Shown here in pieces: positions 42,317-61,863 of a stretch of 64,000 nucleotides of DNA. This DNA comes from Candidatus Dormiibacterota bacterium (GTDB lineage Bacteria; Acidobacteriota; Polarisedimenticolia; Gp22-AA2). Where the stretch lies: contig DASQAT010000001.1 of assembly GCA_035635555.1 (NCBI GenBank), forward strand, positions 62,001 through 126,000. The letters run 5' to 3'. Both the position numbers and the translations under genes were made by a program. Within the stretch, counting starts at the first letter, position 1, and every line of letters begins with the position of its first letter. The notes beneath the pieces were generated by a model. It searched no databases and had not been told where the DNA came from. It saw only the letters and a list, made by a program, of their open reading frames with translations.

Positions 42317-43579
42317 TCACCCGTCCTTCGCGGTGCCGGCGGACCTGCGGGCCGCCCGGGCGTCGAGCACCTCGCGCACCTTGCGGGCCAGAAAGTCCGC
42401 GGTGAACGGTTTCTGAAGGTAGGCCACACCATCGTCGAGCACGCCGTGATGGGCGATCACGCCATCCGTGTACCCGGACATGTAGAGCACGCGGATCCCG
42501 GGTTGGATGTCGGCGACGCTCTCGGCCAGCTGGCGGCCGCTCATCTGCGGCATGACGACGTCGGTGAGGAGGAGATGGATGGGATGATCGTGGCCGCGGA
42601 CGAGATCGAGCGCCTCGCGGCCGTTGCGCGCCTGGAGAACATTGTAGCCGTTGATCCGCAGCATTTCACCGGCCAGCAACCGCACGGTTCGATCGTCTTC
42701 GACGAGGAGCACTGTCTCTGAGCCGCTCGGAAGCGGCGGGGTCGTCTCAGCGGCCTCCTCCGGGGAGACCTCCCCATCCACGCGCGGCAGGTAAATCTTG
42801 AAGGTGGAACCCATCCTGGGTTCGCTGTAGACCCAGATGTAGCCGTCGCTCTGCTTGACGATCCCGTAGACGGTCGCCAGACCGAGCCCCGTCCCCTTGC
42901 CGAGCTGCTTGGTCGTGAAGAACGGCTCGAAGATGCGCGCCTGGGTCGCCAGATCCATGCCGCTGCCTGTATCGCTCACGGCGAGCATGACGTAGCTCCC
43001 CGGCCGGGTGGGGACGTGCTTCTTCGCGAAGGTCTCATCGAGATCGGCGTTCGACGTCTCGACGACGACCCGGCCGCCGTGCGGCATTGAGTCACGCGCG
43101 TTCACGACCAGGTTCATGATGATCTGCTCGACCTGGCTGGGGTCCGCCTCGACGTGTCCCAGGTCCGGCTGGAGCGCCGGGTTCAGCTCGATGGTCTCGC
43201 CGATCAGGCGTCGGAGCATGGGAATCATCTTGGTGACGCTCGAGTTCAGGTCGAGCACCTGGGGCTTCAGGACCTGCCTGCGGCTATAGGCGAGGAGCTG
43301 CCGGGTGAGGCCCGCCGCCCGCTCGCCGGCGATGCGGATTTCCTCGATGCCGGTCCTGGAGGGCTCCTCCACGGGAAGACGCCTGAGCAGGAGTTCGCAT
43401 TGACCGAGAATCGCAGTGAGCAGGTTGTTGAAGTCGTGCGCCAGGCCGCTCGCGAGCCTGCCGATCGTCTCCATCCTCTGAGCCAGGCGGACCTGCTCTG
43501 CGCGCGTGACTGCCTTCGACGAGGCGGGACCAGCGCGTGCTCGGCGTTTGGGCGGCCGCCGCCTGGCGATGACCCTCAT
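42317..43579 (-). CDS. Soluble hybrid histidine kinase with C-terminal receiver
   Basis: 420 residues without membrane or sensor domain. HisKA starts at about residue 30 with the phosphoacceptor H48 in GLAHDFNNLLTAI. HATPase follows (about 145-265; NLVVNARDSMPHGG, DTGSGMD, GKGTGLGLATVYGIV). A receiver ends the chain (about 290-410) with LLLTDVVMP and QKPF. The basic start RRRPPKRRARA could bind DNA or be an artefact of a too-early ATG. The chain is a typical PAS-kinase lacking its PAS part. It is divergent from the ComX-like gene across 286 bases, but there is no sign of a partner. Confidence 0.85.
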   Translation of the reverse strand: MRVIARRRPPKRRARAGPASSKAVTRAEQVRLAQRMETIGRLASGLAHDFNNLLTAILGQCELLLRRLPVEEPSRTGIEEIRIAGERAAGLTRQLLAYSRRQVLKPQVLDLNSSVTKMIPMLRRLIGETIELNPALQPDLGHVEADPSQVEQIIMNLVVNARDSMPHGGRVVVETSNADLDETFAKKHVPTRPGSYVMLAVSDTGSGMDLATQARIFEPFFTTKQLGKGTGLGLATVYGIVKQSDGYIWVYSEPRMGSTFKIYLPRVDGEVSPEEAAETTPPLPSGSETVLLVEDDRTVRLLAGEMLRINGYNVLQARNGREALDLVRGHDHPIHLLLTDVVMPQMSGRQLAESVADIQPGIRVLYMSGYTDGVIAHHGVLDDGVAYLQKPFTADFLARKVREVLDARAARRSAGTAKDG

Positions 43580-43717
43580 CCCCGGGTCATGACCATCGGG
43601 CGCGTAGACGGCGGTGCCGCCACGCGGGGAACTCGTGTCTCATCAGCGTGTCACCTTCCAGGTTCGAGATGTTTTAGTACGCACGCACGGGCGAAGTCAT
43701 CCGTGGATCCGGGGGGG

Positions 43718-43729
43718 CCACGTACGTGG
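43718..43729. promoter_or_regulatory. Perfect 12-bp palindrome CCACGTACGTGG
   Basis: A perfect palindrome in the divergent region between the hybrid kinase and the ComX-like gene, 136 bases before the latter's start. It may be an operator; no bound factor can be named. Confidence 0.35.
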
Positions 43730-43768: not shown

Positions 43769-43788
43769 CGTCCGTGCAATCACGGACG
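43769..43788. promoter_or_regulatory. 8-4-8 inverted repeat, candidate ComA-type regulator box
   Basis: CGTCCGTG-CAAT-CACGGACG, perfect eight-base arms with a four-base spacer, ends 77 bases before the ATG of the ComX-like gene. The Bacillus ComA box (TTGCGG-N4-CCGCAA) has the same spacer and a similar distance, and NarL-family regulators bind such dyads. A binding role for the regulator at 47236 is inference. Confidence 0.5.
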
Positions 43789-43865: not shown

Positions 43866-44060
43866 ATGCAAGTCACAGCACTCGCCGAAGCGGTCATGGG
43901 CTCACGACGATCCAATGGCTCCATTTCTCTTCACGATCTCGAGGTCCGGCTTTCCCGCGCCGGGCTCGAGGAGTTGGCTCGCGCCGTGGCTTCTCTGCGG
44001 CAACGCGCGAGAATAATGAAAGAGGACGGACCCAGTGTCGGCCCGCATCCTTGGATCTGA
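43866..44060 (+). CDS. ComX-like pheromone precursor candidate
   Basis: A 64-residue protein with GGGAGGGCCTTCC before its ATG. There is no signal peptide, as in ComX. The middle reads SNGSISLHDLEVRLSRAGLE (residues 16-35). The NG-x-x-SL turn followed by L-S-x-x-x-L-E-E-L resembles the ComX leader region. The tail ends MKEDGPSVGPHPWI, with Trp 63 the only Trp and one residue from the end. In ComX a Trp near the C-terminus is prenylated by ComQ and the tail is released. It overlaps the transferase gene by 26 bases. Identification rests on length, Trp position and neighbours; sequence identity to Bacillus ComX is low by eye. Confidence 0.72.
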   Translation: MQVTALAEAVMGSRRSNGSISLHDLEVRLSRAGLEELARAVASLRQRARIMKEDGPSVGPHPWI

Positions 44061-45006
44061 CGCCCTTCTAGGACCCCTGCGCGGGCAAATCCGGGACGTG
44101 ATCGCGGCGCGGATCGCGACGACGCTCCACGAGGCTCTTCTGAAGTTGCTCGGTCGGCCCGGATACGTTCTCCACCCAGACGCATCGTGCCGGGCCGGCA
44201 CGCTCGCGCTCATGGTTCTCGAAACAGTGAGCCGCGAGCCGATCGGGAGGACAGCGCTTCTGGCCGCCGCGGCGGTGGAGCTCCAGATGGAGGCGGCGTT
44301 CGTCTTCGACGAAGTGGCCGACGCGACGCCTGGTGCGAACCGGAGCGAGGATCTTGGCCTGGCGATCGCCCTCCTGACTGCGGGAGCGGCCGCGGCGGTG
44401 GAGGCGGCCGCCGACTCTCCCGATCGAGGCGCCGCGATGGATCACTTCTGCCGGGCGTACAGCGAGGCGTGCGCGGGCCAGTTCCTCGACGCCGCGCTCC
44501 AGGGACGGGCAGGAGCGACCCTCGAGGAGGCACTTCAGATGACGCGCTTGAAGTCCGGGGGCCTCGGGAGGTTCGTCACCGGGTTTGCGGCCCGCATCAC
44601 CGGAACGGACCGACACGCTGTCGCACTCTTCGAGCGGTTTGGCGATCACACCTTCACGCTCGCGCAGATCGTCGATGACCTGCGCGACGCGTGCGCTCCG
44701 GGTGAGACATCCGATCTGGCGCAGCGGAAAGCGACCCTGCCGGTCGTCTTCTACGGCCGGGTGATTGACTCTCCGGCGGCCGCCGATGGTATGCTATCCT
44801 GCGATATTCGCGATACTTACGAGTCCTCGGGCGCCCCGCTCTACGCCGCAATCCTCGCCCATGCGTACTTGAGCCGGGCCAAAGAGGATCTGACATTGCT
44901 GGCGCGGCGTGGATATGCGGTCGGAGGGCTCGTCGCTTTTCTCGAGAGCGTGGACTCGGGCGCTGGGGCTACTCTCAGCGCCGCACGGAGCAGTCTGGTC
45001 GCCTGA
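44035..45006 (+). CDS. ComQ-like isoprenyl transferase
   Basis: 323 residues of the trans-isoprenyl diphosphate synthase fold. The first Asp-rich motif is FDEVAD (D92-E93-x-x-D96, with Glu for the second Asp). The second is DDLRD (D214, D215, D218), followed by DLAQRKATLPVVF (228-239), a block I associate with ComQ rather than with chain-elongating synthases. GQFLDAAL and RLKSGGLGRFVTGF complete the substrate helices. The GKRxRP start of housekeeping synthases is missing. The GTG at 44035 follows GAGGAC at eight bases and overlaps the peptide gene. It should prenylate the Trp of the peptide with a farnesyl or geranyl donor. It could alternatively be an unrelated short-chain synthase. Confidence 0.8.
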   Translation: MSARILGSDALLGPLRGQIRDVIAARIATTLHEALLKLLGRPGYVLHPDASCRAGTLALMVLETVSREPIGRTALLAAAAVELQMEAAFVFDEVADATPGANRSEDLGLAIALLTAGAAAAVEAAADSPDRGAAMDHFCRAYSEACAGQFLDAALQGRAGATLEEALQMTRLKSGGLGRFVTGFAARITGTDRHAVALFERFGDHTFTLAQIVDDLRDACAPGETSDLAQRKATLPVVFYGRVIDSPAAADGMLSCDIRDTYESSGAPLYAAILAHAYLSRAKEDLTLLARRGYAVGGLVAFLESVDSGAGATLSAARSSLVA

Positions 45007-47239
45007 CGGGTCACGGCTGGGAGCCTCCGCAATCCTCCTGACCTTTTTTCTGGTCGTGGCGTTCGCAAGCGTCGCGATCCAAACTCCGGGAAGGCTCGGT
45101 CTCAGGTTGGGACCGTGCGGGGACAATGTATGCGTCGACTGGGTGATGCCGGCTGGACTTGCCTGGTACGACGGCGCCCGCCCCGGCATGCGGGTCATCG
45201 CGCTCGACGGTCTGGACGCCCACGCCGCGGCCGGTTTCCATCCTCTGCGGGAGGTCGCGCTGCTGGCTCCGGGAGGCCGGAGCGTTCTGGCTCGCGTGAC
45301 GTTCGAGGCCATGAACGTGCCTTTCTGGGCTAGTGCCTCCCTTTGGCTCACCGGGGCTCTATTCGCTCTTCTTGGCTCGGTCGTCCTGGTGCGGCGACCT
45401 GATGCGCCAGTCGCCCGTCTCTTCGCGCTCTTCGCAGGGCTCACGGGAGTCGCGCTTGGAGTGTCGCCGGCCTCCGGCGGCCCTCATCCCGTGTGGGCGC
45501 TCGTGGTGCAGTTTGTGAGCCTCCTGGGGGTGGCGACAGCCCTGCCGGCGTTCGCCACCGCCTTCGTGGGGGAGTGGAGCGGACCCCGGACCGTCCTCCG
45601 GCTTTTCTGGCTGGCCGGCGGCCTGCTCCTGACCGGCTACCTGGTCTCCATTTTCATTCTTCCCTCTTTCTACAGCCAGGTGCGGGTCGCCTTCGCCATT
45701 TACTTCGTGGGGAGTATCCTCGCCGCTCTCATCGTGCTCGCGCGAAGGACGTTGTCCCACCCCCCCACACGGTCAGCGCGCGACGCCCGCCTCGCACTGG
45801 CCGGTATCGCCTGCGGCACGCTTCCCTTCGTCGGTCTCACCCTGATTCCGCAAAACACCGTGCACAGCGAGATCGCACCGGGATACGTGACCGCGATTCT
45901 GTGGGGCGTCATCCCCCTGACCTTCGCGTACGCCATCCTCCGCCACCAGGTCCTCGGCATCCGCCGTCTCGTGCACCGCGGCATGGTCCATGGCATCACG
46001 GCGACGATCACCCTGGCTGTCGTCTTCCTCATCGTCGTCGCGATCGACTCCCGCGGCGACGGGGTTCTCCGGGCTGCGCACCCCGCGTGGTCGACCGCCG
46101 CGCTCGTCGCGCTCGGGGCTCTTCTCTTTCACGTCCTGTCCCGGGGCGTGCGCGTCCTGGTCGACCGACTCTTCTATCACGACGAAGTCGACTCGGGGAC
46201 CTTGCTGGCGGCCATGCGCAATGATCTTGTCGGAAGCGCGCACGTCGAGGAAGTCGTGGCCGCCATGGTGAAGAAACTGCGGGAGTCGCTGCGGCTGGAG
46301 GCCGTTCTCCTGTTCCTGGGGACGACCGCCGAGACGGTGCGCGTGGCTGCGTCGGCCGGAACGCGCGCGGACGAGAGCATCGAATATATCCGGCCGCGCC
46401 TTCTCGCGATGGATCTTGACGAGCACGGAATGTCCGAGACACGATGGGACTCCGACGTGCTGCTCATCGCCCGGCTTGAGACCGGGGTCCACACGCTGGG
46501 TTTCCTGGTACTCGGGCCGAAGGAGAGGGGCGAGGTCTTCCTCCGCGAGGAGCGGCGTCTGGTCGAGACCGTCACCCCGATCCTCGCGCTCGCGATTCGC
46601 GAAACGAGCCTTCTCGCGGAGCTGCGCGAAGTGAACGAGCGCCTGACGGACGCGCAGGAGGCCGAGCGCGGGCGAATCGCGCGCGACCTCCATGACGGAC
46701 CGCTGCAGAAGGCGATTCTGCTCGGCGGCGGCGCCGACGTGGCGCTTCGCGACAGGAACGGTGTGGCCCGCGAGCTTGCGGCGGAATTGCGCGAGGTGTG
46801 CGCCCGCCTCCGGCCGGCCATCCTCGACGATCTGGGCCTCGTCCCGGCCCTCGAGTGGCTGTTGGAGCAGACCGCCCAGGGATTCACCGTGACGCCGCGC
46901 TTGACGCTGCGCGGCATGACGGAAGACGATCGCCTGGCGCCGAATACCGAGCTGGCGCTCTTCCGCGTCACCCAGGAGGCCGTGAGCAACGCCCTGAAGC
47001 ACGGTCACGCCAGGTCGATCCACGTCTCGCTGTCCAGGACGATCAACGGCGTCGAGCTGTCCGTCACCGATGACGGCAACGGCGCCGCGTTTGCCGGCGA
47101 TTCGATGCGCGGCCTCGGCATCCCGGGGATGCGCGAGCGCCTCCGTCAGGTCGGGGGGAGCGTCTCGATACTGTCCGACGGAAGAACGGGGACCATGGTC
47201 TCGGCCCGCATTCCGTACGTGGTTCACGGAGAACAATGA
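44915..47239 (+). CDS. ComP-like membrane sensor histidine kinase
   Basis: 774 residues. A first helix (about 37-55) is followed by a periplasmic PDZ-like segment (about 58-133; VMPAGLAWYDGARPGMRVIALDG). Nine or so more helices run to about residue 410, then comes a GAF-like cytoplasmic part (425-565). The HisKA_3 phosphoacceptor is H593 in IARDLHDGPLQ. The HATPase has ALKHGHA, DDGNG and GLGIPGMRERL. This PDZ-plus-many-helices order is that of Bacillus ComP. The start (ATG 44915 or GTG 44909) overlaps the transferase gene by about 92-98 bases. No usable start other than CTG lies after the transferase stop until inside the first helix. It overlaps the regulator gene by four bases. Confidence 0.88.
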   Translation: MRSEGSSLFSRAWTRALGLLSAPHGAVWSPDGSRLGASAILLTFFLVVAFASVAIQTPGRLGLRLGPCGDNVCVDWVMPAGLAWYDGARPGMRVIALDGLDAHAAAGFHPLREVALLAPGGRSVLARVTFEAMNVPFWASASLWLTGALFALLGSVVLVRRPDAPVARLFALFAGLTGVALGVSPASGGPHPVWALVVQFVSLLGVATALPAFATAFVGEWSGPRTVLRLFWLAGGLLLTGYLVSIFILPSFYSQVRVAFAIYFVGSILAALIVLARRTLSHPPTRSARDARLALAGIACGTLPFVGLTLIPQNTVHSEIAPGYVTAILWGVIPLTFAYAILRHQVLGIRRLVHRGMVHGITATITLAVVFLIVVAIDSRGDGVLRAAHPAWSTAALVALGALLFHVLSRGVRVLVDRLFYHDEVDSGTLLAAMRNDLVGSAHVEEVVAAMVKKLRESLRLEAVLLFLGTTAETVRVAASAGTRADESIEYIRPRLLAMDLDEHGMSETRWDSDVLLIARLETGVHTLGFLVLGPKERGEVFLREERRLVETVTPILALAIRETSLLAELREVNERLTDAQEAERGRIARDLHDGPLQKAILLGGGADVALRDRNGVARELAAELREVCARLRPAILDDLGLVPALEWLLEQTAQGFTVTPRLTLRGMTEDDRLAPNTELALFRVTQEAVSNALKHGHARSIHVSLSRTINGVELSVTDDGNGAAFAGDSMRGLGIPGMRERLRQVGGSVSILSDGRTGTMVSARIPYVVHGEQ

Positions 47240-47886
47240 ATCCAGCGATCAAGGTCCTCCTCGTCGATGATCACCTCATGTTCCGCGAGGGAATCCGGAA
47301 CCGGCTGGCCCGTCACAGCCGGTTCAAGGTCGTCGGGGAAGCCGCCAGCGCCGAGGAGGCGATCAAGATCCTGCAGCAGACCGCTCCTTCCATCGTGATT
47401 CTCGACATCCGGATGCAGGGGCCCTCCGGCATCGACCTGGCCCGGCGTCTGCGTCGCGAGTGGCCGGACGTCAAGATTCTCGTCCTCAGCGGGTATGACT
47501 TCGACCAGTATGTCCGCGCCCTTGCCCGCATCGGCATCCACGGATATCTGTTGAAGGACTGCCCCCAGGAGGATCTCATCGAAGCCCTCGACGAGATCGC
47601 CCGGGGCGGGGTCGTGCTTCCGCCGCGCATCGCGTCGAAGATCATGCGCAGCTACGCCTCGGATTCGGTGAACGAGGGCCGAAACTCAAGATGGGACCTG
47701 ACCGTCCGGGAGATCGAGGTCCTGGAATGTCTTCACGAAGGACTGCGAAACGCCGATATCGCCTCCCGCCTGGATATCTCTCCCCGCACGGTCGAAACGC
47801 ACGTGAGCAGCATCATTTCGAAGCTCGGCGCGCACAGCCGAACCGAAGCGGTGCGCAGGGCGGTCCAGGAGAGTCTGATCCGCTAG
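47236..47886 (+). CDS. ComA-like NarL/FixJ response regulator
   Basis: 216 residues. Receiver with VLLVDDHLMFREGI, phosphoacceptor Asp in IVILDIRMQGPSG and Lys in YLLKDC. LuxR helix-turn-helix at about 150-210 (LTVREIEVLECLHEGLRNADIASRL, RTVETHVSSIISKL). ATG overlaps the kinase stop (ATGA), making the pair a unit. As ComA does, it would bind a dyad such as that at 43769-43788 and switch on target genes, perhaps including its own operon. Confidence 0.93.
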   Translation: MNPAIKVLLVDDHLMFREGIRNRLARHSRFKVVGEAASAEEAIKILQQTAPSIVILDIRMQGPSGIDLARRLRREWPDVKILVLSGYDFDQYVRALARIGIHGYLLKDCPQEDLIEALDEIARGGVVLPPRIASKIMRSYASDSVNEGRNSRWDLTVREIEVLECLHEGLRNADIASRLDISPRTVETHVSSIISKLGAHSRTEAVRRAVQESLIR

Positions 47887-50165: not shown

Positions 50166-50307
50166 TCAGCCCTTGATAAAGGAAATCAGCTCCTCGTTCA
50201 CCATGTACTTGAGAGTCGTGCACATTCCGTGCGGGGCGGACGACGGGCTGCCCCGTGCCCCAGTCCTTGTAGATCTGCGTTCCGTCCTTGGTCGTGATGG
50301 TGTTCAT
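50166..50307 (-). pseudogene. Alpha/beta hydrolase (non-haem chloroperoxidase type) reduced to its two ends
   Basis: The start, after AGGAGGGCGTCCC, reads MNTITTKDGTQIYKDWGTGQPVV, the first 23 residues of a chloroperoxidase-like hydrolase. The next codons are out of frame, but in another frame the family C-terminus follows directly: GMCTTLKYMVNEELISFIKG and a stop at 50166. Some 220-230 residues with the whole catalytic core are missing between them. A single internal deletion explains this. It lies 18 bases upstream of dps on the same strand. Confidence 0.72.
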
Positions 50308-50470
50308 GGGACGCCCTCCTGTGTCGCGCGACTCCCGCGCCGAGGGATGGACTCGATTCCTGACTCGCCCGATGCGAAGGAGTATAATCCTGGCCGACCC
50401 GTTCTGCCCAGGTTTTCAGGATGCTTCGACCCGGCGTCGGAACCGCGACGGCGGGCACGGTGACGGACGA

Positions 50471-52117
50471 ATGGCTGAGATGACCCCGGCCGAGATTGAG
50501 GCCTTCCCCACCCTGACCGCGGGGCAGATCGCGCGGATCGCCCCCTTCGCGCGCGAGCGCGATCTCGTCGACGACGAAAGCCTGTGGGAGGCGGGGGATC
50601 GCAACAGGCCGATGTACGTGATCGTCCGGGGCGAGGTCGAGATCCTGTCAGGGGCCGATCACGTGGTGACCGTGCACAACGCCGGTGCGTTCACGGGGGA
50701 CGTCGACCTCCTGTCCGGCCGTCCGGTGGTGGTGCGGGCGCGCGCCCGGGGCGCCGCGCGCGTGCTCGAGCTGCCTCCGGCCCGGCTGCGCTCGATGATC
50801 CAGACGGACGCGGAGCTGAGCGAAATCTTCCTGCGCGCGTTCATGCTGCGCCGCCTGGCGCTGATGGCCCAGGGCGGGGGGAATATCGTCCTCATCGGCT
50901 CGCGCCATTGCGCGGGCACGCTCGCGCTGCGGGAGTTCCTGACCCGCAACAGCCAGCCGCACGGATATCTCGACCTGGAGGGGGACCCGGCGGTCCAGGA
51001 GACGCTCGACAAGTTCGGGGTCGGTGTCGACGACGTGCCGGTCCTCATCTGCCGGGGGACCCGGGTGCTGCGCAAACCGACGATCGAAGACGTGGCCGAC
51101 TGTCTCGGGTTGAACGATCTCAACGAGGCGGTCGTGCGCGATGTCGCGGTCATCGGGGCCGGGCCGGCGGGTCTGTCGACCGCCGTCTACGCGGCGTCCG
51201 AGGGGCTCGATGTCCTGGTGCTCGAGGCCCGGTCGCCGGGCGGGCAGGCCGGCTCGAGCTCCAGGATCGAGAACTACCTGGGCTTCCCGACGGGAGTCAC
51301 GGGGCAGATCCTCGCCAGCAGCGCCCTCGTCCAGGCCGAGAAGTTCGGGGCGGAGCTCGCGGTGGCCCGCACCGTGTCGCGGCTCGGGTGCGATCGCCCC
51401 TATCGCGTGGAGCTCGGCGCAGGCGTCGTCGTCCAGGCCCGCTCGATCGTCATCGCGACCGGGGCCAAGTACCGCAAGCCGGACCTGCCGAACCTGTCGC
51501 GTTTCGAGGGGGTCGGCGTCTATTATGGAGCGACGCAGGTCGAGGCGCTCTTCTGCCGCGGTGAGGACGTCATCGTCATCGGGGGCGGCAATTCCGCCGG
51601 CCAGGCCGCGGTCTTCCTCTCGGAGACGGGCCGCCACGTGACCATGATGGTCCGCGGCGCGGGGCTCGCGCAGAGCATGTCGCGTTACCTGATCCACCGC
51701 ATCCAGGAGACGCCCAAAATCACGCTGCTCACGAACACGCGCATCGTGGCGCTGGCGGGGGACTCGCGGCTGGAGAAGGTGACCTGGCGCGATGGAAACG
51801 GGACCGAGACGACGGCGGACATCCGGCACGTCTTCATGATGACCGGCGCCGACCCGAACACCGCGTGGCTGCAGGACTGCGTCGCCCTCGACGATCGGGG
51901 ATACGTGAAGACGGGTCCGGATCTCGACGCGGGGGCCCTGGCCGCGGCTCGCTGGCCGTTCGCGCGCCCGCCGATGCTTTTCGAGACCAGCCGGCCCGGC
52001 GTGTTCGCGATCGGCGACGTCCGGGCCAACAGCGTCAAGCGCGTCGCCGCCGCGGTGGGCGAGGGCTCGGTCTGCGTCCAGCTGGTGCACAAGGTGCTCT
52101 CCGAGTCGGTGGCCTAG
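50471..52117 (+). CDS. Cyclic-nucleotide-binding domain fused to thioredoxin-reductase-like flavoprotein
   Basis: 548 residues. A cNMP-binding-type beta-roll (about 15-130; GEVEILSGADHVVTVHNAGAFTGDVDLLSGRP) precedes a thioredoxin-fold-like segment (about 138-215; LREFLTRNSQPHGYLDLEGD). The flavoprotein part has the FAD motif VIGAGPAGLS and the NADPH motif VIGGGNSAGQAA, and ends in FAIGDVRANSVKRVAAAVGEG. Where thioredoxin reductase has its CxxC, this protein has YYGATQ, so it cannot use the standard disulfide. A single Cys lies nearby in ALFCRGED. It may be a regulated oxidoreductase; partners unknown. The zinc-finger gene follows after nine bases. Confidence 0.9.
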   Translation: MAEMTPAEIEAFPTLTAGQIARIAPFARERDLVDDESLWEAGDRNRPMYVIVRGEVEILSGADHVVTVHNAGAFTGDVDLLSGRPVVVRARARGAARVLELPPARLRSMIQTDAELSEIFLRAFMLRRLALMAQGGGNIVLIGSRHCAGTLALREFLTRNSQPHGYLDLEGDPAVQETLDKFGVGVDDVPVLICRGTRVLRKPTIEDVADCLGLNDLNEAVVRDVAVIGAGPAGLSTAVYAASEGLDVLVLEARSPGGQAGSSSRIENYLGFPTGVTGQILASSALVQAEKFGAELAVARTVSRLGCDRPYRVELGAGVVVQARSIVIATGAKYRKPDLPNLSRFEGVGVYYGATQVEALFCRGEDVIVIGGGNSAGQAAVFLSETGRHVTMMVRGAGLAQSMSRYLIHRIQETPKITLLTNTRIVALAGDSRLEKVTWRDGNGTETTADIRHVFMMTGADPNTAWLQDCVALDDRGYVKTGPDLDAGALAAARWPFARPPMLFETSRPGVFAIGDVRANSVKRVAAAVGEGSVCVQLVHKVLSESVA

Positions 52118-55840: not shown

Positions 55841-57358
55841 TCACGAGTCGGGCCGTAGCCGCAGCCCCTTCGGAATGACCAGCCTGCCGAGGCCCGCAAA
55901 CAGGGCCTGGACCAGAAGGGCGAGAAGAGCGGCAGGCACGGCCCCCTCGAGAATCAGCTCCAGGTCGTCGAGCCGGATGCCGGTGAGGATCGGCTGGCCC
56001 AGGCCTCCCGCCCCGATCAACGCACCGAGGGTCGCGGTCCCGACGTTGATGACGGCGGAGGTCTGGATGCCGGCCATGATCGCCGGCGAAGCGAGCGGAA
56101 GCTCCACCTTCAAGAGTCTCGCCGCGGCAGAAAGGCCCAGAACGTCCGCCGACTCGAGCAGGGCGGCCGGAATGGCGGCCAGACCGGTGACCGTGTTCCT
56201 GACGATGGGGAGAACGCTGTAGAAGAAAAGCGCGGCCACGGCCGGGGGCGTTCCGATGCCGAGCAGCGGAATCATGAGGACCAGGAGCGCCAGCGACGGG
56301 ATGGTCTGGATGACGCCGGCCACCGCCAGGATGGCCGCCCCCAGCCTCCTTCGGCGGGCGGCGGCGACACCCAGGGGCAGTGCGACCAGGATCGCGGCGC
56401 TCAGGGAGGCCGCCACGAGCGCGATGTGCTCGACGACGTACCGGCCGACCCGCCGCGCCCTCCCCTCGCCCCCCGCCTCCCCTTCCATTCCGAGAGCCGA
56501 GGCGAGAAAATCGACCGCCACGACCCGCTCGGGGGTGCGCTCCAGCTTGACGCGCGCGTTGAGGCGCTGCATGTCGCTGGCGGCGATGCGCCCTTCGAGG
56601 ACCGTCAGCGACGCCAGGGCCGACGCCGCGCGCGAGGGGAGATCGAGTCGATAAAGGATGACGGCGCGGTACCTCGGAAAATGTCCCAGATCGTCGTCCA
56701 GAACCCTGAGATGGTAATAAGGGATCTCGGCGTCCGTCGTGTAGAGATCGATGGCGTCGACGTCGCCTGCCGCCAGGGCGCGGTAGGCCAGGTCATGATC
56801 GAGCGATCGCACCTCGGTCTGCGGCAACCCGTAACGCTTCTTGAGGGTCGGCCAGCCGTCGCGCCGGTTCAGAAACTCCTCGCTGAAGGCAAGCCGGAGC
56901 CGCGGGAGTCCGCGCAGATCGGAGATGCGCGTCACCCCCAGCCGGGAGGCGTCTTTCTCGCTCATCCCGAGCGCGTAACTGTCCTCGAACCCGAGAGAGC
57001 CGGTCATCCCGACCCCGCGCGCGGCGAGGGCGCTCCTCAGGGACTCATCGCTTCCATCGGGCGGCGCGTCCCGCACGATGTCTTCGCGGATCGTCCCGGT
57101 GTACTCGGGATACAGGTCGATCTCTCCCGCGAGCAGCGCGTGCCAGAGCACCTGGGTGCCCCCGAGCTGCGCCCGGTGCTCGGCGCGCGTGCCGGTGCTG
57201 CGCATCACCTGTGTGATGACCTCACCGAGCACGACCGATTCGGTGAACTTCTTTGAGCCGACGCGCACTTCGGGCGGGGCGCCGCGGCAGGATGCGCCCC
57301 ACAGCGCGACGGCGAGAGCCGGAGACAGGACGACAAGACCGCGTAACGGGCGAGTCAT
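55841..57358 (-). CDS. Glycine betaine/choline-type ABC importer: fused binding protein and permease
   Basis: 505 residues. An N-terminal signal or lipid anchor (LWGASC lipobox-like, Cys about 24) precedes a substrate-binding domain of the OpuC/OsmF type (about 30-285; VRVGSKKFTESVVLGE, AGEIDLYPEYTGT, AGDVDAIDLYTTDAEI). The permease domain (about 320-500) has five or six helices and the coupling motif region AARLLKVELPLASPAIMAGI. Fusion of the two is known in some OpuA/OpuC-type systems, usually with the permease first. Here the binding domain is first. ATG overlaps the ATPase stop. Confidence 0.9.
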   Translation of the reverse strand: MTRPLRGLVVLSPALAVALWGASCRGAPPEVRVGSKKFTESVVLGEVITQVMRSTGTRAEHRAQLGGTQVLWHALLAGEIDLYPEYTGTIREDIVRDAPPDGSDESLRSALAARGVGMTGSLGFEDSYALGMSEKDASRLGVTRISDLRGLPRLRLAFSEEFLNRRDGWPTLKKRYGLPQTEVRSLDHDLAYRALAAGDVDAIDLYTTDAEIPYYHLRVLDDDLGHFPRYRAVILYRLDLPSRAASALASLTVLEGRIAASDMQRLNARVKLERTPERVVAVDFLASALGMEGEAGGEGRARRVGRYVVEHIALVAASLSAAILVALPLGVAAARRRRLGAAILAVAGVIQTIPSLALLVLMIPLLGIGTPPAVAALFFYSVLPIVRNTVTGLAAIPAALLESADVLGLSAAARLLKVELPLASPAIMAGIQTSAVINVGTATLGALIGAGGLGQPILTGIRLDDLELILEGAVPAALLALLVQALFAGLGRLVIPKGLRLRPDS

Positions 57359-58140
57359 CGGACCGCACCGGGCCGGCTCTGTGCATGGATGAACCGGGTG
57401 ACGAACGGCTCGGCCGGGTGCTCGACGAGGTCCCGCAGGGGACCCTGCTGGACGACGTCTCCATCCCGCAGGAGGACGACGCGGTCGGCGAAGAACTCGG
57501 CCTCGACGAGATCGTGCGTGACGAGCACCACCGTCTGTCCAAGCACCTTGAAGATTTCCCGGAGGTCCGTCCGCAGCTCCGCTCGAATCATCGGGTCGAG
57601 CGCTCCGAGCGGCTCGTCGAGGAAGAGCAGCTCGGGTCCGAGCATCAGGGCCCGCATCAGGCTGACCCGCTGGCGCTGCCCACCCGAGAGCTGTGCGGGA
57701 AAGCGATTCATCCCGTCGCGCGGAAAGTGGGTGAGTTCGATCAACTCCTCGAGCCGGCGCTGGATGCGTCCGGCGTCCCAGCCGAAGTAGCGCGCCGCGA
57801 GCGTGACGTTCGCCGCCGCGGTCATGTGCGGGAAGAGTCCGCCTTCCTGGATCACGTACCCCATGCGCCGCCGCAGCGTTCCCATCGTTTTTGGAGCGAG
57901 GGGCTGCCCCCACAGGAGCACTTCCCCCTCGCTCGGCCGCGACAGTCCGGTCAAAAGACGCAGAAGCGTCGACTTCCCGGAGCCGGTGGGGCCGAGCAGG
58001 ACATTGACGCCGGCGCCCAGCGACAGTGTCGTCCTCTTCAAGGCCTCGTTGTCGCCGTAGCGCTTCGCGACACCACGCAGCTCGATGATGGGGGCGTCGA
58101 AGGGGGGAGTCAAAGTGTCGATAATTCTATCATCAGGCAC
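57355..58140 (-). CDS. ABC transporter ATP-binding protein (quaternary amine importer type)
   Basis: 261 residues. Walker A GPTGSGKST, Q-loop IQEGGLFPHMT, signature LSGGQRQRVSLMRAL, Walker B LLFLDEPLGALDP and H-loop VLVTHDLVEAEFFADR are all present. There is no CBS-type regulatory extension, unlike OpuCA. It pairs with the fused binding protein-permease gene that overlaps it. The GTG at 58140 is the best start; no ribosome-binding site is clear and a TTG ten codons later is an alternative. Confidence 0.9.
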   Translation of the reverse strand: MPDDRIIDTLTPPFDAPIIELRGVAKRYGDNEALKRTTLSLGAGVNVLLGPTGSGKSTLLRLLTGLSRPSEGEVLLWGQPLAPKTMGTLRRRMGYVIQEGGLFPHMTAAANVTLAARYFGWDAGRIQRRLEELIELTHFPRDGMNRFPAQLSGGQRQRVSLMRALMLGPELLFLDEPLGALDPMIRAELRTDLREIFKVLGQTVVLVTHDLVEAEFFADRVVLLRDGDVVQQGPLRDLVEHPAEPFVTRFIHAQSRPGAVR

Positions 58141-58285
58141 AGGCAGGCGAACCCGGGGTTGGAGGTTCCGTCGCCTCGATGGACCGGCGCTCGCTGAAGA
58201 CCGCCAGGATCTACGACGGCCGCCCGTTGAGCAGGCTCCCTCCGGCCTCGGGGCCTCACGCTGCGTCCGCGGGACCGTTTTGTGC

Positions 58286-58314
58286 TTGCGATCCGCCCGC
58301 CTTCGGCGTACACA
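58286..58314 (+). promoter_or_regulatory. Candidate sigma-70 promoter of cytochrome/propeller gene
   Basis: TTGCGA (58286-58291), 17 bases, then TACACA (58309-58314). Transcription would begin within a few bases of the ATG at 58324, giving a near-leaderless transcript, or about 50 bases before the ATG at 58369. Confidence 0.35.
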
Positions 58315-58323
58315 TTCGGGTCG

Positions 58324-61300
58324 ATGGAGGCCGATTTGTACGCACGGAGCGGGCGTTCCTTCAGAGCGATGACTTTCGTGGCCCTCCTCGGATTCGCGCA
58401 CGCCGTCGCGCTGGCCGCCGGGGCCCGCTCGTTCAAGAGCGGAACGATCCAGATCACCGCCGACGGCTCGACCGTGTGGGTCGTCAACCCGGACCATGAC
58501 TCGGTGTCCCGCATCGACACCGCCACCGACACGGTCGTCGAGTTCCCCCTGCCGCAGCCGGGCGGACCGCCGATACGGCACAATCCGTCGGGTCTCTCGG
58601 TCATGGAGGACGGCAGCGAGGTGTGGGTCGCCTGCCATGACTCGGATCGGATCTACGTCCTGAGGGGACCGGACGGAGCCGTGCTCGCGCGCATCGATCT
58701 TCCCTGGGGTAGCGGACCGTATGGCGTGGCGCTGTCCCGCGATCAGACCCGGGTGCTGGTCACGCTCCTCCGCGGCAGCCGCGTCGGGCTGATTGACCGC
58801 GCCACGCGGCAGGTCATCTCGTTGCTGGACACGTTCCGCAGTCCGCTCGGCATCGCCTGGATGGAGGACGGCGTCTCCGCCTGGATCACCCACCGGCATG
58901 TTCTCGATCGGCTGCCGCGCGTGAGTCGCGTCGATGTTTCCCCTCCCGGGCCGCGGGTGACGACCCAGGAGCGCACCGACGGCGCGGGACCTCAGGACAA
59001 CGCGGCCCTTCACGACGCCGATCCGACCCACAACTTCGCCGAGGGCGGGTACCTGAACTTCCGCGGTCATCTGGCGCAGCGTCCCTCCACGACGCGAGTC
59101 TGGGTGCCGACCCAGTACGACAACCGCAACCAGACCGTCATCACCCCGGACTCCATCCTCCAGGCGACGCTGCGGCAGATCGATCTGACGACGCGGCGCA
59201 TCCCGAACACGATCAACGACAAGATCATCCTGTCGGCCCGGCAGGTGCACGATCCCCAGACCTCGATCTGGCTCGGGCCGGGCTGGGATCTGGGCGTCGC
59301 TGGACCGGACGACCTCGCTTTCTCGAGCGACGGCGCGACCGTCTACGTGGTGGGAGAGCTCAGCGAGAACCTGGTGGTGATGCCGGCCGCGACGCCTCCC
59401 TATCGTGATGGCGTCGCCCCCAGTCCCGTGCTCGTGAGCGTCGGACAGCGTCCGCAGGGAGTCGCCGTCTCTCCGGTCGCCCTCGGCGGCCGCCAGATCG
59501 CCTATGTCGCCAACATCCTCTCGCGTGACGTGTCCAAGGTCGACGTCACCAGCTGGTCCGGCTCCTTCGAGCTCGCCCGGATCCCCGTGACACCCTCGAC
59601 CCCCGAGCCGAGGTCGTCCTCCTTCCTGAGAGGAGATCGTCTGTTCCATTCCTCGGTGGACCCGCGTGTCTCCTCGAACCACAAGGTGGCTTGCGGATCG
59701 TGCCACATCGACGGTGAGCAGGACGGGCGGGCCTGGGACCTGCAACATCTCCCGGGAGCGCACGGCCCCCGTCAGACCCAGTCGATCCTCGGGCTCGGTC
59801 TGTCGATGGGCCCGCCCGACCCGGTCACGGGGCTCGGCCAGCTCCACCGGTCCGGCGACCGTGACGAGGTGCAGGACTTCGATCACACCTTCCGCGGCCC
59901 GCAGATGGGAGGCACCGGGTTCATCTCCGCGCCCCTGCTTCAACCGGACCTCGGCCCGCCCAACGCCGGACGCGATCCCGACCTCGACGATGTCGCGCTG
60001 TACGCGCTGACCCTGCCGCCTCTCATGCGGAGCCCGCACCGAAATCCCGACGGCACCCTGTCGGAGGCAGCCGTCCGCGGGGCGACCTTCTTCGTGGGCG
60101 GCGGGACACGGCCGGCCGACGCGAGGTGCGCCTCGTGCCACGTCCCGGAGACGGGATTCGTCGATTTCGCCTTTCACGATGTGGGCGAGCGGCACGATGC
60201 CGGAGAGGCCGAGCTGAACACGCGGCCGCCGCTGTGGGGCGTGAACACAGCGTCCCTGGTCGGCGCCTGGGACTCTCCGCCGTACGTCGGCGCCGCGCAG
60301 GCCAAGGATCCCGAGACTCTCGTCGAGGAGATCCTCGACTTCCGCAGAGCGGGGCGCTCGGCGCCCCATGGCACGGTCTCCGGCCTCACCGGTCGTCAGG
60401 TGCAGGACCTCGCGGAGTTCCTCGCGTCCATCGACGGCGGCACCGCCGCCGCAGAAGTGCGCGGTGTGGCCGACCACTCTCCGCCGCGCGTGGTGCGAGT
60501 CGAGGCGGCCTCGTTGACGCGGGTCGATGCCTGGTTCAGCGAGAGCGTGTCGCCGTCTGCCGCCGTCCCCGCCGCCTGGACGCTGCACGCGGTGGGCGGG
60601 GCCGACGCCCCGATCCTCGCCGCCGCGCTCGATCCGCAGAACGGCGACCGGGTGACCTTCACCGTCGGGCCGCTCCACCATGACTGCGGTCCGGTGACTT
60701 ACGCGCTCGTCCCGCTCGGGCCGATCTTCGATCTCGCCGACTCGGCCGGCGGCGGCACCGCCAACGCCCTCGACGTCGCCGATCCGTCCAACAGCCGCAC
60801 GTTCGTCATCGGCGACACGCTCACCGTATCGTTCGGGGCCTCGGGGTACGAGAACTTCACGATCCCGGTGCACGACTCCGGCACGGTCTACGGGAGCCCC
60901 GCCGGAGCCAACGGCTCGGTCTGGCTGCGCTCCAACAACGGCGGGACCCAGCGCAACACGGATTTCCTGCGCTTTGAGTGGGAGGCGGCCTTCGCGACGA
61001 CCGGGACAGCTTCGCCCGGCAGCATCGTCGATGCGTCGTTCTCCATTCTGCCCACCTTCGGAGACGCGCAGGTGATCGAGGCGCGCCGTGTCCTTCAAAG
61101 ATGGTGGGACTACGGGGGCGGCGATCAGACGCAGAACCCGGTCAATCCCGTCAATGGCCATGGCGGGCCCACCTACAGCTACAGCGAGTTCAACGTGAAA
61201 AGCTGGAACGCTCCCAATGCGGGCTCCAGGACCACCGGGGTCAACGGCCAAGCGGTCTCCGATTATCTCGGCACTCGCGACACGGCGTTCGACCCGGATG

Positions 61301-61863
61301 TCGTCGTGAGCATGAGCGGCCTGGGTCAGCGGGCCGTGTTCGGCGGAGCGGGAGTCCTCGACGCCTTTCGCTTCTGGTTCCAGAACCCGTCTCTGGACCA
61401 GGGGTACGCGCTGCAGCTGACGAGCGCGGCGAAGCAGGAGACCCGCTTCCACGCCGGTGAAGAGGAGGTTCGGCATTACGGTCCCGTGATGTCGCTCACC
61501 TACGTTCTCCCGGCGACCACCGGCCCGCCTCCGCCGGAGGTCTCCTCATCGGGCTCGGGGGCGCCTCTCATAATGGACCGGGGAGCGGGCGGTGACCTCT
61601 TGATCTCGTTCCAGGATCTGGGAGGCACCGTTGGCGGGTACAACATCTATGAAGGGACGCTCGGGGGCGGCTACACGCACGTCCCCAAAGCGTGCGCTGT
61701 CGCAACCACCCGGGTCAACGGCCTGCGGCAGGCTCGCGTGACACCGGCCGCCGGTAACACCTACTACCTGGTGACCGCCTCCGATCCATGCCAGGAGGGG
61801 ATCAGCGGCACCGACTCATCCGGCGCGCCGCAACCCGGCACCAATCTCACCTGCCCGCCGTGA
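58324..61863 (+). CDS. Large secreted beta-propeller protein with di-haem cytochrome c peroxidase-like domain
   Basis: 1179 residues. After a signal (VALLGFAHAVALAAG) comes a YVTN-type propeller (about 30-440; GTIQITADGSTVWVVNPDHDS, GVALSRDQTRVLVTLL). Next is a cytochrome-type domain (about 445-715) with two haem sites, CGSCHIDG and CASCHVPE. The second is followed by LNTRPPLWGV as in MauG/di-haem peroxidases. The C-terminal 450 residues are beta-sandwiches, ending in a fibronectin-like TYYLVTASDPC. It probably performs electron transfer or oxidation at the cell surface. An ATG at 58369 is an alternative start just before the signal. Confidence 0.88.
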   Translation: MEADLYARSGRSFRAMTFVALLGFAHAVALAAGARSFKSGTIQITADGSTVWVVNPDHDSVSRIDTATDTVVEFPLPQPGGPPIRHNPSGLSVMEDGSEVWVACHDSDRIYVLRGPDGAVLARIDLPWGSGPYGVALSRDQTRVLVTLLRGSRVGLIDRATRQVISLLDTFRSPLGIAWMEDGVSAWITHRHVLDRLPRVSRVDVSPPGPRVTTQERTDGAGPQDNAALHDADPTHNFAEGGYLNFRGHLAQRPSTTRVWVPTQYDNRNQTVITPDSILQATLRQIDLTTRRIPNTINDKIILSARQVHDPQTSIWLGPGWDLGVAGPDDLAFSSDGATVYVVGELSENLVVMPAATPPYRDGVAPSPVLVSVGQRPQGVAVSPVALGGRQIAYVANILSRDVSKVDVTSWSGSFELARIPVTPSTPEPRSSSFLRGDRLFHSSVDPRVSSNHKVACGSCHIDGEQDGRAWDLQHLPGAHGPRQTQSILGLGLSMGPPDPVTGLGQLHRSGDRDEVQDFDHTFRGPQMGGTGFISAPLLQPDLGPPNAGRDPDLDDVALYALTLPPLMRSPHRNPDGTLSEAAVRGATFFVGGGTRPADARCASCHVPETGFVDFAFHDVGERHDAGEAELNTRPPLWGVNTASLVGAWDSPPYVGAAQAKDPETLVEEILDFRRAGRSAPHGTVSGLTGRQVQDLAEFLASIDGGTAAAEVRGVADHSPPRVVRVEAASLTRVDAWFSESVSPSAAVPAAWTLHAVGGADAPILAAALDPQNGDRVTFTVGPLHHDCGPVTYALVPLGPIFDLADSAGGGTANALDVADPSNSRTFVIGDTLTVSFGASGYENFTIPVHDSGTVYGSPAGANGSVWLRSNNGGTQRNTDFLRFEWEAAFATTGTASPGSIVDASFSILPTFGDAQVIEARRVLQRWWDYGGGDQTQNPVNPVNGHGGPTYSYSEFNVKSWNAPNAGSRTTGVNGQAVSDYLGTRDTAFDPDVVVSMSGLGQRAVFGGAGVLDAFRFWFQNPSLDQGYALQLTSAAKQETRFHAGEEEVRHYGPVMSLTYVLPATTGPPPPEVSSSGSGAPLIMDRGAGGDLLISFQDLGGTVGGYNIYEGTLGGGYTHVPKACAVATTRVNGLRQARVTPAAGNTYYLVTASDPCQEGISGTDSSGAPQPGTNLTCPP

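Follow-up and report, generated by a model that had tools for sequence, protein, structure and literature searches.

A putative ComQXPA-like signalling operon with a tryptophan-bearing precursor peptide in a soil bacterium of the phylum Acidobacteriota

The stretch of DNA analysed here (64,000 nucleotides, hereafter the window) belongs to an Acidobacteriota soil bacterium of subgroup 22, the assembly of which comprises 4.28 Mb and is 99% complete. Analysis of the open reading frames confirmed four genes on the plus strand between positions 43866 and 47886. The first gene, X (43866-44060), encodes a putative precursor peptide of 64 amino acids and is followed by Q (44035-45006), which encodes a ComQ-like prenyltransferase of the trans-IDS type with 323 residues. 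The third gene, P (44915-47239), specifies a membrane sensor kinase of 774 residues and the last, A (47236-47886), a response regulator of the NarL/LuxR family with 216 residues. The start of P was set at the ATG at 44915, which corresponds to the ATG in the relatives, while the mechanical open reading frame begins at 44909. The genes overlap by 26 nt (X/Q, if Q starts with the GTG at 44035), 92 nt (Q/P) and 4 nt (P/A). Four overlapping genes in this place had been proposed by an initial annotation, and frames, domains and conservation in sister genomes all bear this out. Its list of parts (a Trp-ending peptide, a ComQ-like enzyme, a kinase with PDZ and multi-helix domains and a NarL-type regulator) holds as well, as does its assignment to a Gram-negative host, related records being named Acidobacteria. 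A search of the window against Rfam gave no match, and the X-Q-P-A cluster contains no gene for an exporter, a protease or an immunity protein.

Of the other four genomes of the genus, three contain Q with 77-79% identity, and the remaining one (G002, 75% complete) gave no match. The survey of related genomes suggested by the initial annotation recovered the order X-Q-P-A wherever the locus occurs in the genus (four genomes, the contig of G004 stopping inside P), and X directly precedes Q in all three sister genomes. Among 396 genomes of the phylum, a search at E 1e-9 returned only these four copies of Q, apart from two ordinary synthases. The weaker matches that were aligned had been considered as further relatives of Q and turned out to be ordinary synthases, too. 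A scan of GTDB species genomes, which reaches close kin only, yielded just two relatives of the same genus, gp22 AA4 and gp22 AA3, and in a search of plasmids Q gave only weak Streptomyces matches and the sensor none. Full-length P (E 1e-40, 60 relatives) was likewise present only in the four genomes with X and Q, such that Q and full-length P are confined to the same set. The sample for the locus consists of four assemblies, at least two of which are MAGs.

Peptide X ends with GPHPWI in the window genome and with DKHPWF, EHPWF and DHPWIS in the other three. The HPW motif is invariant and followed by one or two residues. Across the four genomes, the leader (residues 1-44) is under purifying selection (dN 0.07-0.13 versus dS 0.18-1.2), and the tail, i.e. 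the last ~20 residues, is hypervariable (dN 0.33-0.61) and also differs in length, with all length changes in frame and confined to this part. In each of the four genomes, X is preceded by a GGAGG ribosome site. With its conserved leader, its variable tail and a single fixed Trp close to the C-terminus, X has the layout of a ribosomal peptide that is modified on this residue. Purifying selection on the leader, the GGAGG site ahead of every X and the restriction of in-frame length changes to the tail lead us to conclude that X is a coding gene with the pattern of a peptide precursor and a putative modified Trp. The frame with its ribosome site and the operon are kept in the three sister genomes, which together with selection and the invariant HPW places the locus beyond chance. 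The stop of X lies near the start of Q in all four cases and no family model recognises X, as might be expected if the 64-residue frame were not a gene or merely a leader, the translation of which is coupled to that of Q. Pure coupling, however, would not conserve the protein sequence, and the strong selection on the amino acids of the leader, the GGAGG sites, the exclusive occurrence of in-frame indels and the invariance of HPW render this explanation highly improbable. Loss of the frame and its Trp from relatives, an outcome that the initial annotation had set against its own reading, was not seen: both are conserved in all genomes that keep the enzyme and the kinase.

A Trp close to the C-terminus of a short and variable precursor is a feature of ComX, and in X it appears as HPWI, HPWF, HPWF and HPWIS. 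Its distance from the end is two or three residues, compared with two to four in four Firmicutes ComX proteins. Similarity of sequence was not detected. X did not match the ComX model PF05952 at E<=1, a model with which known ComX proteins score 25-72 bits, and a profile comparison between X and ComX detected nothing. A remote relationship of X to ComX was considered and rejected, since in addition to the missing profile match the shuffled pair scores were uneven across four ComX proteins (p 0.035-0.044 with one and 0.4-0.96 with the other three).

The second protein, Q, matches the polyprenyl synthetase family of Pfam (PF00348, 42.6 bits), and two ordinary polyprenyl synthases are encoded in the genome besides it. 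Motifs were compared in an alignment that contained, besides the Q copies and these two synthases, twelve further ones from the phylum and four ComQ proteins of Firmicutes. The first Asp-rich motif (FARM) of Q is DEVAD and is acidic in all copies (DEVAD or DDVAD), and the second (SARM), DDLRD, is part of a stretch QxVDDLRD that is intact in all four, unlike in ComQ, where the second motif is degenerate. Motifs of the GGKxxR and RRG types, i.e. the residues serving isopentenyl diphosphate, are present in the two own-genome and the twelve other ordinary synthases and are absent from Q as well as from ComQ. The LGKPxx stretch that follows the second Asp-rich motif is likewise missing from both Q and ComQ. 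Q thus lacks the full set of a housekeeping synthase (GGKxxR, DDxxD, RRG, DDxxD) and resembles ComQ as a member of the trans-IDS family that has an acidic first motif and has lost the isopentenyl diphosphate motifs. Judged from these motifs, Q is a divergent relative of trans-prenyl diphosphate synthases that is set apart from the two ordinary synthases of its genome. Trp is the target of every trans-IDS-like prenyltransferase that has been characterised, and its recognition has been tied to a Gln that precedes the second motif (PMC13290415). This Gln is kept in Q but also in the ordinary synthases aligned and is thus not discriminating. The AlphaFold model of Q (pLDDT 39) was too poor for use.

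Profile comparison (hhalign) related Q to ComQ with an E-value of 6e-9. In one tree, Q, ComQ and a cyanobacterial protein from Acaryochloris were split from all ordinary synthases with a support of 98/98, a value that carries a long-branch warning. The transferase hence does not group firmly with housekeeping synthases, which the initial annotation had named as the result that would speak against it. When the two longest rows were left out, AU tests did not reject trees in which Q falls with some of the ordinary synthases (p 0.13, 0.14 and 0.46). These findings bear on the proposal that Q synthesises or alters a small isoprenoid (a diphosphate, a terpene or a free Trp derivative) that is sensed by P, and that X stays unmodified, for example as an accessory protein or a leader. 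Q is recognised as a polyprenyl synthetase and its second DDxxD motif is intact, so that an ordinary diphosphate acceptor is conceivable; kinship with ordinary synthases is compatible with the AU tests, and a related enzyme, Ord1, farnesylates free Trp (PMC13290415). On the other hand, the loss of GGKxxR and RRG speaks against isopentenyl diphosphate as the acceptor, and it would otherwise be hard to explain why a peptide that is hypervariable and encoded beside the enzyme gene has an invariant Trp. We therefore give little credence to the small-isoprenoid proposal.

The Firmicutes reference loci were found with a ComQ probe, and only the annotated records that it retrieved entered the comparisons. 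Two further observations concern other replicons. The Acaryochloris marina protein is encoded on plasmid pREC3 (L027, 4333-5280); it is a polyprenyl-synthase-like protein without GGKxxR that falls near ComQ on a long branch. Its gene adjoins that of a DUF4157 protein, and no obvious Trp-ending precursor is located close by. Furthermore, two plasmids filed as Stenotrophomonas rhizophila (CP065518.1 and CP031730.1) carry a ComQ gene with 31% identity to the ComQ probe; it scores much like a match on a Lysinibacillus plasmid and the host name may be wrong.

In the sensor P, a single transmembrane helix is followed by a PDZ-like segment, a multi-helix membrane domain and a GAF-like domain, and these in turn by HisKA_3 and HATPase_c. 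Pfam recognised HisKA_3 and HATPase_c and, weakly, GAF; it found no PDZ domain in P. The PDZ-like segment nevertheless matches solved PDZ domains (scribble, best E 2.8e-4) and can be aligned with unambiguous PDZ segments in related sensors, and in Anoxybacillus ComP a sub-threshold Pfam PDZ match lies at the corresponding position. An AlphaFold model of the segment was too poor (pLDDT 41), and Foldseek returned nothing significant with it. P contains all elements by which ComP is recognised (transmembrane segment, PDZ, multi-helix membrane domain, HisKA_3 and HATPase_c), and its alignment with Firmicutes ComP spans the membrane domain and the kinase core. Sensors with the same PDZ-multi-helix-GAF layout occur without X or Q in at least eight other Acidobacteriota genomes (L050, L052-L056, L058 and L060), but they have other outputs, by inspection HisKA kinases or SpoIIE-type phosphatases. 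Their layout also corresponds to that of the ComP sensor, and the phylum survey found no Q relative outside the genus of the window. The profile match between P and these acidobacterial proteins extends over 365 columns, and P scores 98-106 bits against them, while Firmicutes ComP proteins reach 49 and 15 bits against the same sensors. With a support of 68/66, the sensor tree places P firmly neither with ComP nor with the other PDZ-multi-helix sensors. A grouping of P with the acidobacterial sensors in this tree was withdrawn, because the starred fork comprises the ComP branch alone. The occurrence of the layout in other Acidobacteriota and the nearer profile scores indicate that the receptor type is at home in the phylum. 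Since such sensors are common there in the absence of X and Q, their ligand need not be a prenylated peptide, and independent assembly of the locus from native parts is possible.

Regulator A consists of Response_reg and GerE domains and is 33% identical to Anoxybacillus ComA, a value that any NarL-type regulator might reach. The gap between the operon and a divergently transcribed gene for a hybrid histidine kinase (42317-43579, minus strand; HisKA, HATPase_c and a C-terminal Response_reg domain) amounts to 286 nt. This kinase gene is found in the same place in three sister contigs (L018, L019 and L020) and shares its control region with X; it is possibly an extra component of the system. Upstream of X, a perfect dyad, CGTCCGTG-N4-CACGGACG (43769-43788), forms a candidate operator. 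The genome contains no other exact copy of its inner 16 bp, and the dyad is largely kept in the sister genomes. With one mismatch allowed, 15 sites were found genome-wide versus 3 in the control, and the one-mismatch search is accordingly too loose for naming a regulon. Farther upstream lies a composite element, CATCCGT-N15-ACGTACGT (43694-43729, plus strand), which includes the palindrome CCACGTACGTGG and is a candidate promoter or operator element. It precedes X in all four genomes, and the control pattern gave 0 hits. We consider the dyad and the composite element candidate sites for A. A further exact copy of CATCCGT-N15-ACGTACGT is located on contig C6 (188-218; L062 / L070), about 100 nt upstream of the gene of a TPR protein that is secreted or lipoprotein-like and possibly co-regulated. 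Elsewhere in the window, a frame at 50288-52117 (plus strand) fuses a cyclic-nucleotide-binding domain to a pyridine-nucleotide-disulphide oxidoreductase, and a frame of 1373 residues at 57355-61476 (minus strand) contains an ABC-transporter ATPase domain close to its C-terminus.

Taken as a whole, the locus parallels the ComQXPA system of Firmicutes (PMC4008528) in having genes of the same four kinds next to each other on one strand, in a short precursor with Trp near the C-terminus and the tail as its most variable part, in a trans-IDS-like enzyme without isopentenyl diphosphate motifs, in a DegS-type membrane kinase with PDZ and multi-helix sensor and in a NarL-type regulator. It differs by the order X-Q-P-A instead of Q-X-P-A in all four genomes, by an X that has no detectable similarity to ComX, by the intact DDLRD motif of Q and the 92-nt overlap of Q and P, and by an acidobacterial host with an outer membrane. 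Formal membership in ComQXPA fails on ComX sequence and on gene order. The initial statement that all four Bacillus parts are present is consequently supported as to the kinds of parts but not as to descent, X being without detectable similarity to ComX. For Q and P, the trees leave room for descent from the Bacillus parts as well as for other origins: AU tests did not reject the joining of Q to some ordinary synthases, and PDZ-multi-helix sensors without X or Q are widespread in Acidobacteriota. In the comparisons proposed initially, X failed to match ComX, whereas Q was related to ComQ, P aligned with ComP and A showed the noted identity to ComA.

Prenylation of Trp in ribosomal peptides is also known outside the Bacillus pheromone system. 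PalQ and PalX of Paenibacillus alvei (PMC10853753) likewise pair a trans-IDS-like enzyme with a ribosomal peptide that is encoded alongside and has a C-terminal Trp. PalX carries an NHLP leader and ends with Trp; the leader of X is, by eye, unlike it, and in X the Trp is followed by one or two residues. Moreover, the operon described here includes a kinase-regulator pair. ChrPC, NctPC and cyanobactin prenyltransferases such as KgpF also act on Trp of ribosomal peptides, but ChrPC and NctPC carry a fused cyclase domain, the cyanobactin enzymes and NctPC have an ABBA-barrel fold, and no quorum-sensing pair has been described for any of them (PMC13290415). Such precedents raise the possibility that X and Q yield a prenylated-Trp peptide with a mainly non-signalling role, for example in antibiosis or membrane action, the production of which is controlled by P and A in response to the peptide or to envelope stress. 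The other known prenylated ribosomal peptides are natural products and not pheromones (PMC10853753, PMC13290415), PalQ sets a precedent for a trans-IDS-like Trp prenyltransferase outside quorum sensing, and P resembles acidobacterial PDZ-multi-helix sensors. The absence of an immunity or export gene from the cluster argues against such a role, as do the tight overlap of X, Q, P and A and the species-specific tail with its invariant Trp, which look more like a pherotype than a conserved bioactive core. We consider a mainly non-signalling peptide unlikely.

In our judgement, the operon is probably a cell-cell signalling circuit that acts like ComQXPA, with a prenylated-Trp peptide as pheromone in a diderm phylum. 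From sequence, we infer prenylation of X, export, sensing and autoregulation. X would be a ribosomally made precursor with a conserved leader to which Q binds. Q would use an allylic diphosphate to attach an isoprenoid group, e.g. geranyl or farnesyl, to the invariant Trp in the His-Pro-Trp motif near the C-terminus. The variable C-terminal part would be freed and exported by cell proteases and transporters encoded elsewhere, as in Bacillus. The PDZ/multi-helix sensor P would detect the prenylated peptide outside the cytoplasmic membrane and phosphorylate A, which may bind the conserved sites upstream of X and possibly others elsewhere.

In a census from 2014, ComQXPA-like loci were confined to Firmicutes (Dogsa et al., 2014, PMC4008528), and an analysis from 2022 reported the full pathway in clostridia and only the kinase-regulator pair in Chloroflexi (PMC8895600). 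No literature linking the ComX pheromone and ComP to Acidobacteriota was found among non-subscription papers. The initial annotation knew of prenylated-Trp pheromones only in Firmicutes. Prenylation of Trp in peptides as such is not confined to them, since cyanobacterial enzymes also carry it out (PMC13290415); its coupling to a two-component pair has apparently not been reported outside Firmicutes and appears to be what is new here. With regard to origin, independent assembly from native parts may be extended to a compound proposal, namely that prenylated-Trp signalling arose separately in Acidobacteriota from a native sensor and a re-purposed synthase and that PDZ-multi-helix sensors of the phylum detect prenylated or lipid-like signals, both of which together we regard as rather unlikely. 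Either origin would be of interest, be it transfer across phyla or a second invention using native parts.

Peptide pheromones that are sensed by a membrane kinase are viewed as a Gram-positive habit, and Acidobacteriota are abundant but poorly known soil bacteria. If the signalling reading is true, ComX-type signalling would be extended to a Gram-negative phylum without an earlier report, and the system would provide a Trp prenyltransferase whose acceptor motif, HPW, is short. It would also raise the questions of how a lipidated peptide crosses the outer membrane, whether the system spread between phyla or evolved twice, and which signals are detected by the many related PDZ-multi-helix sensors of the phylum.
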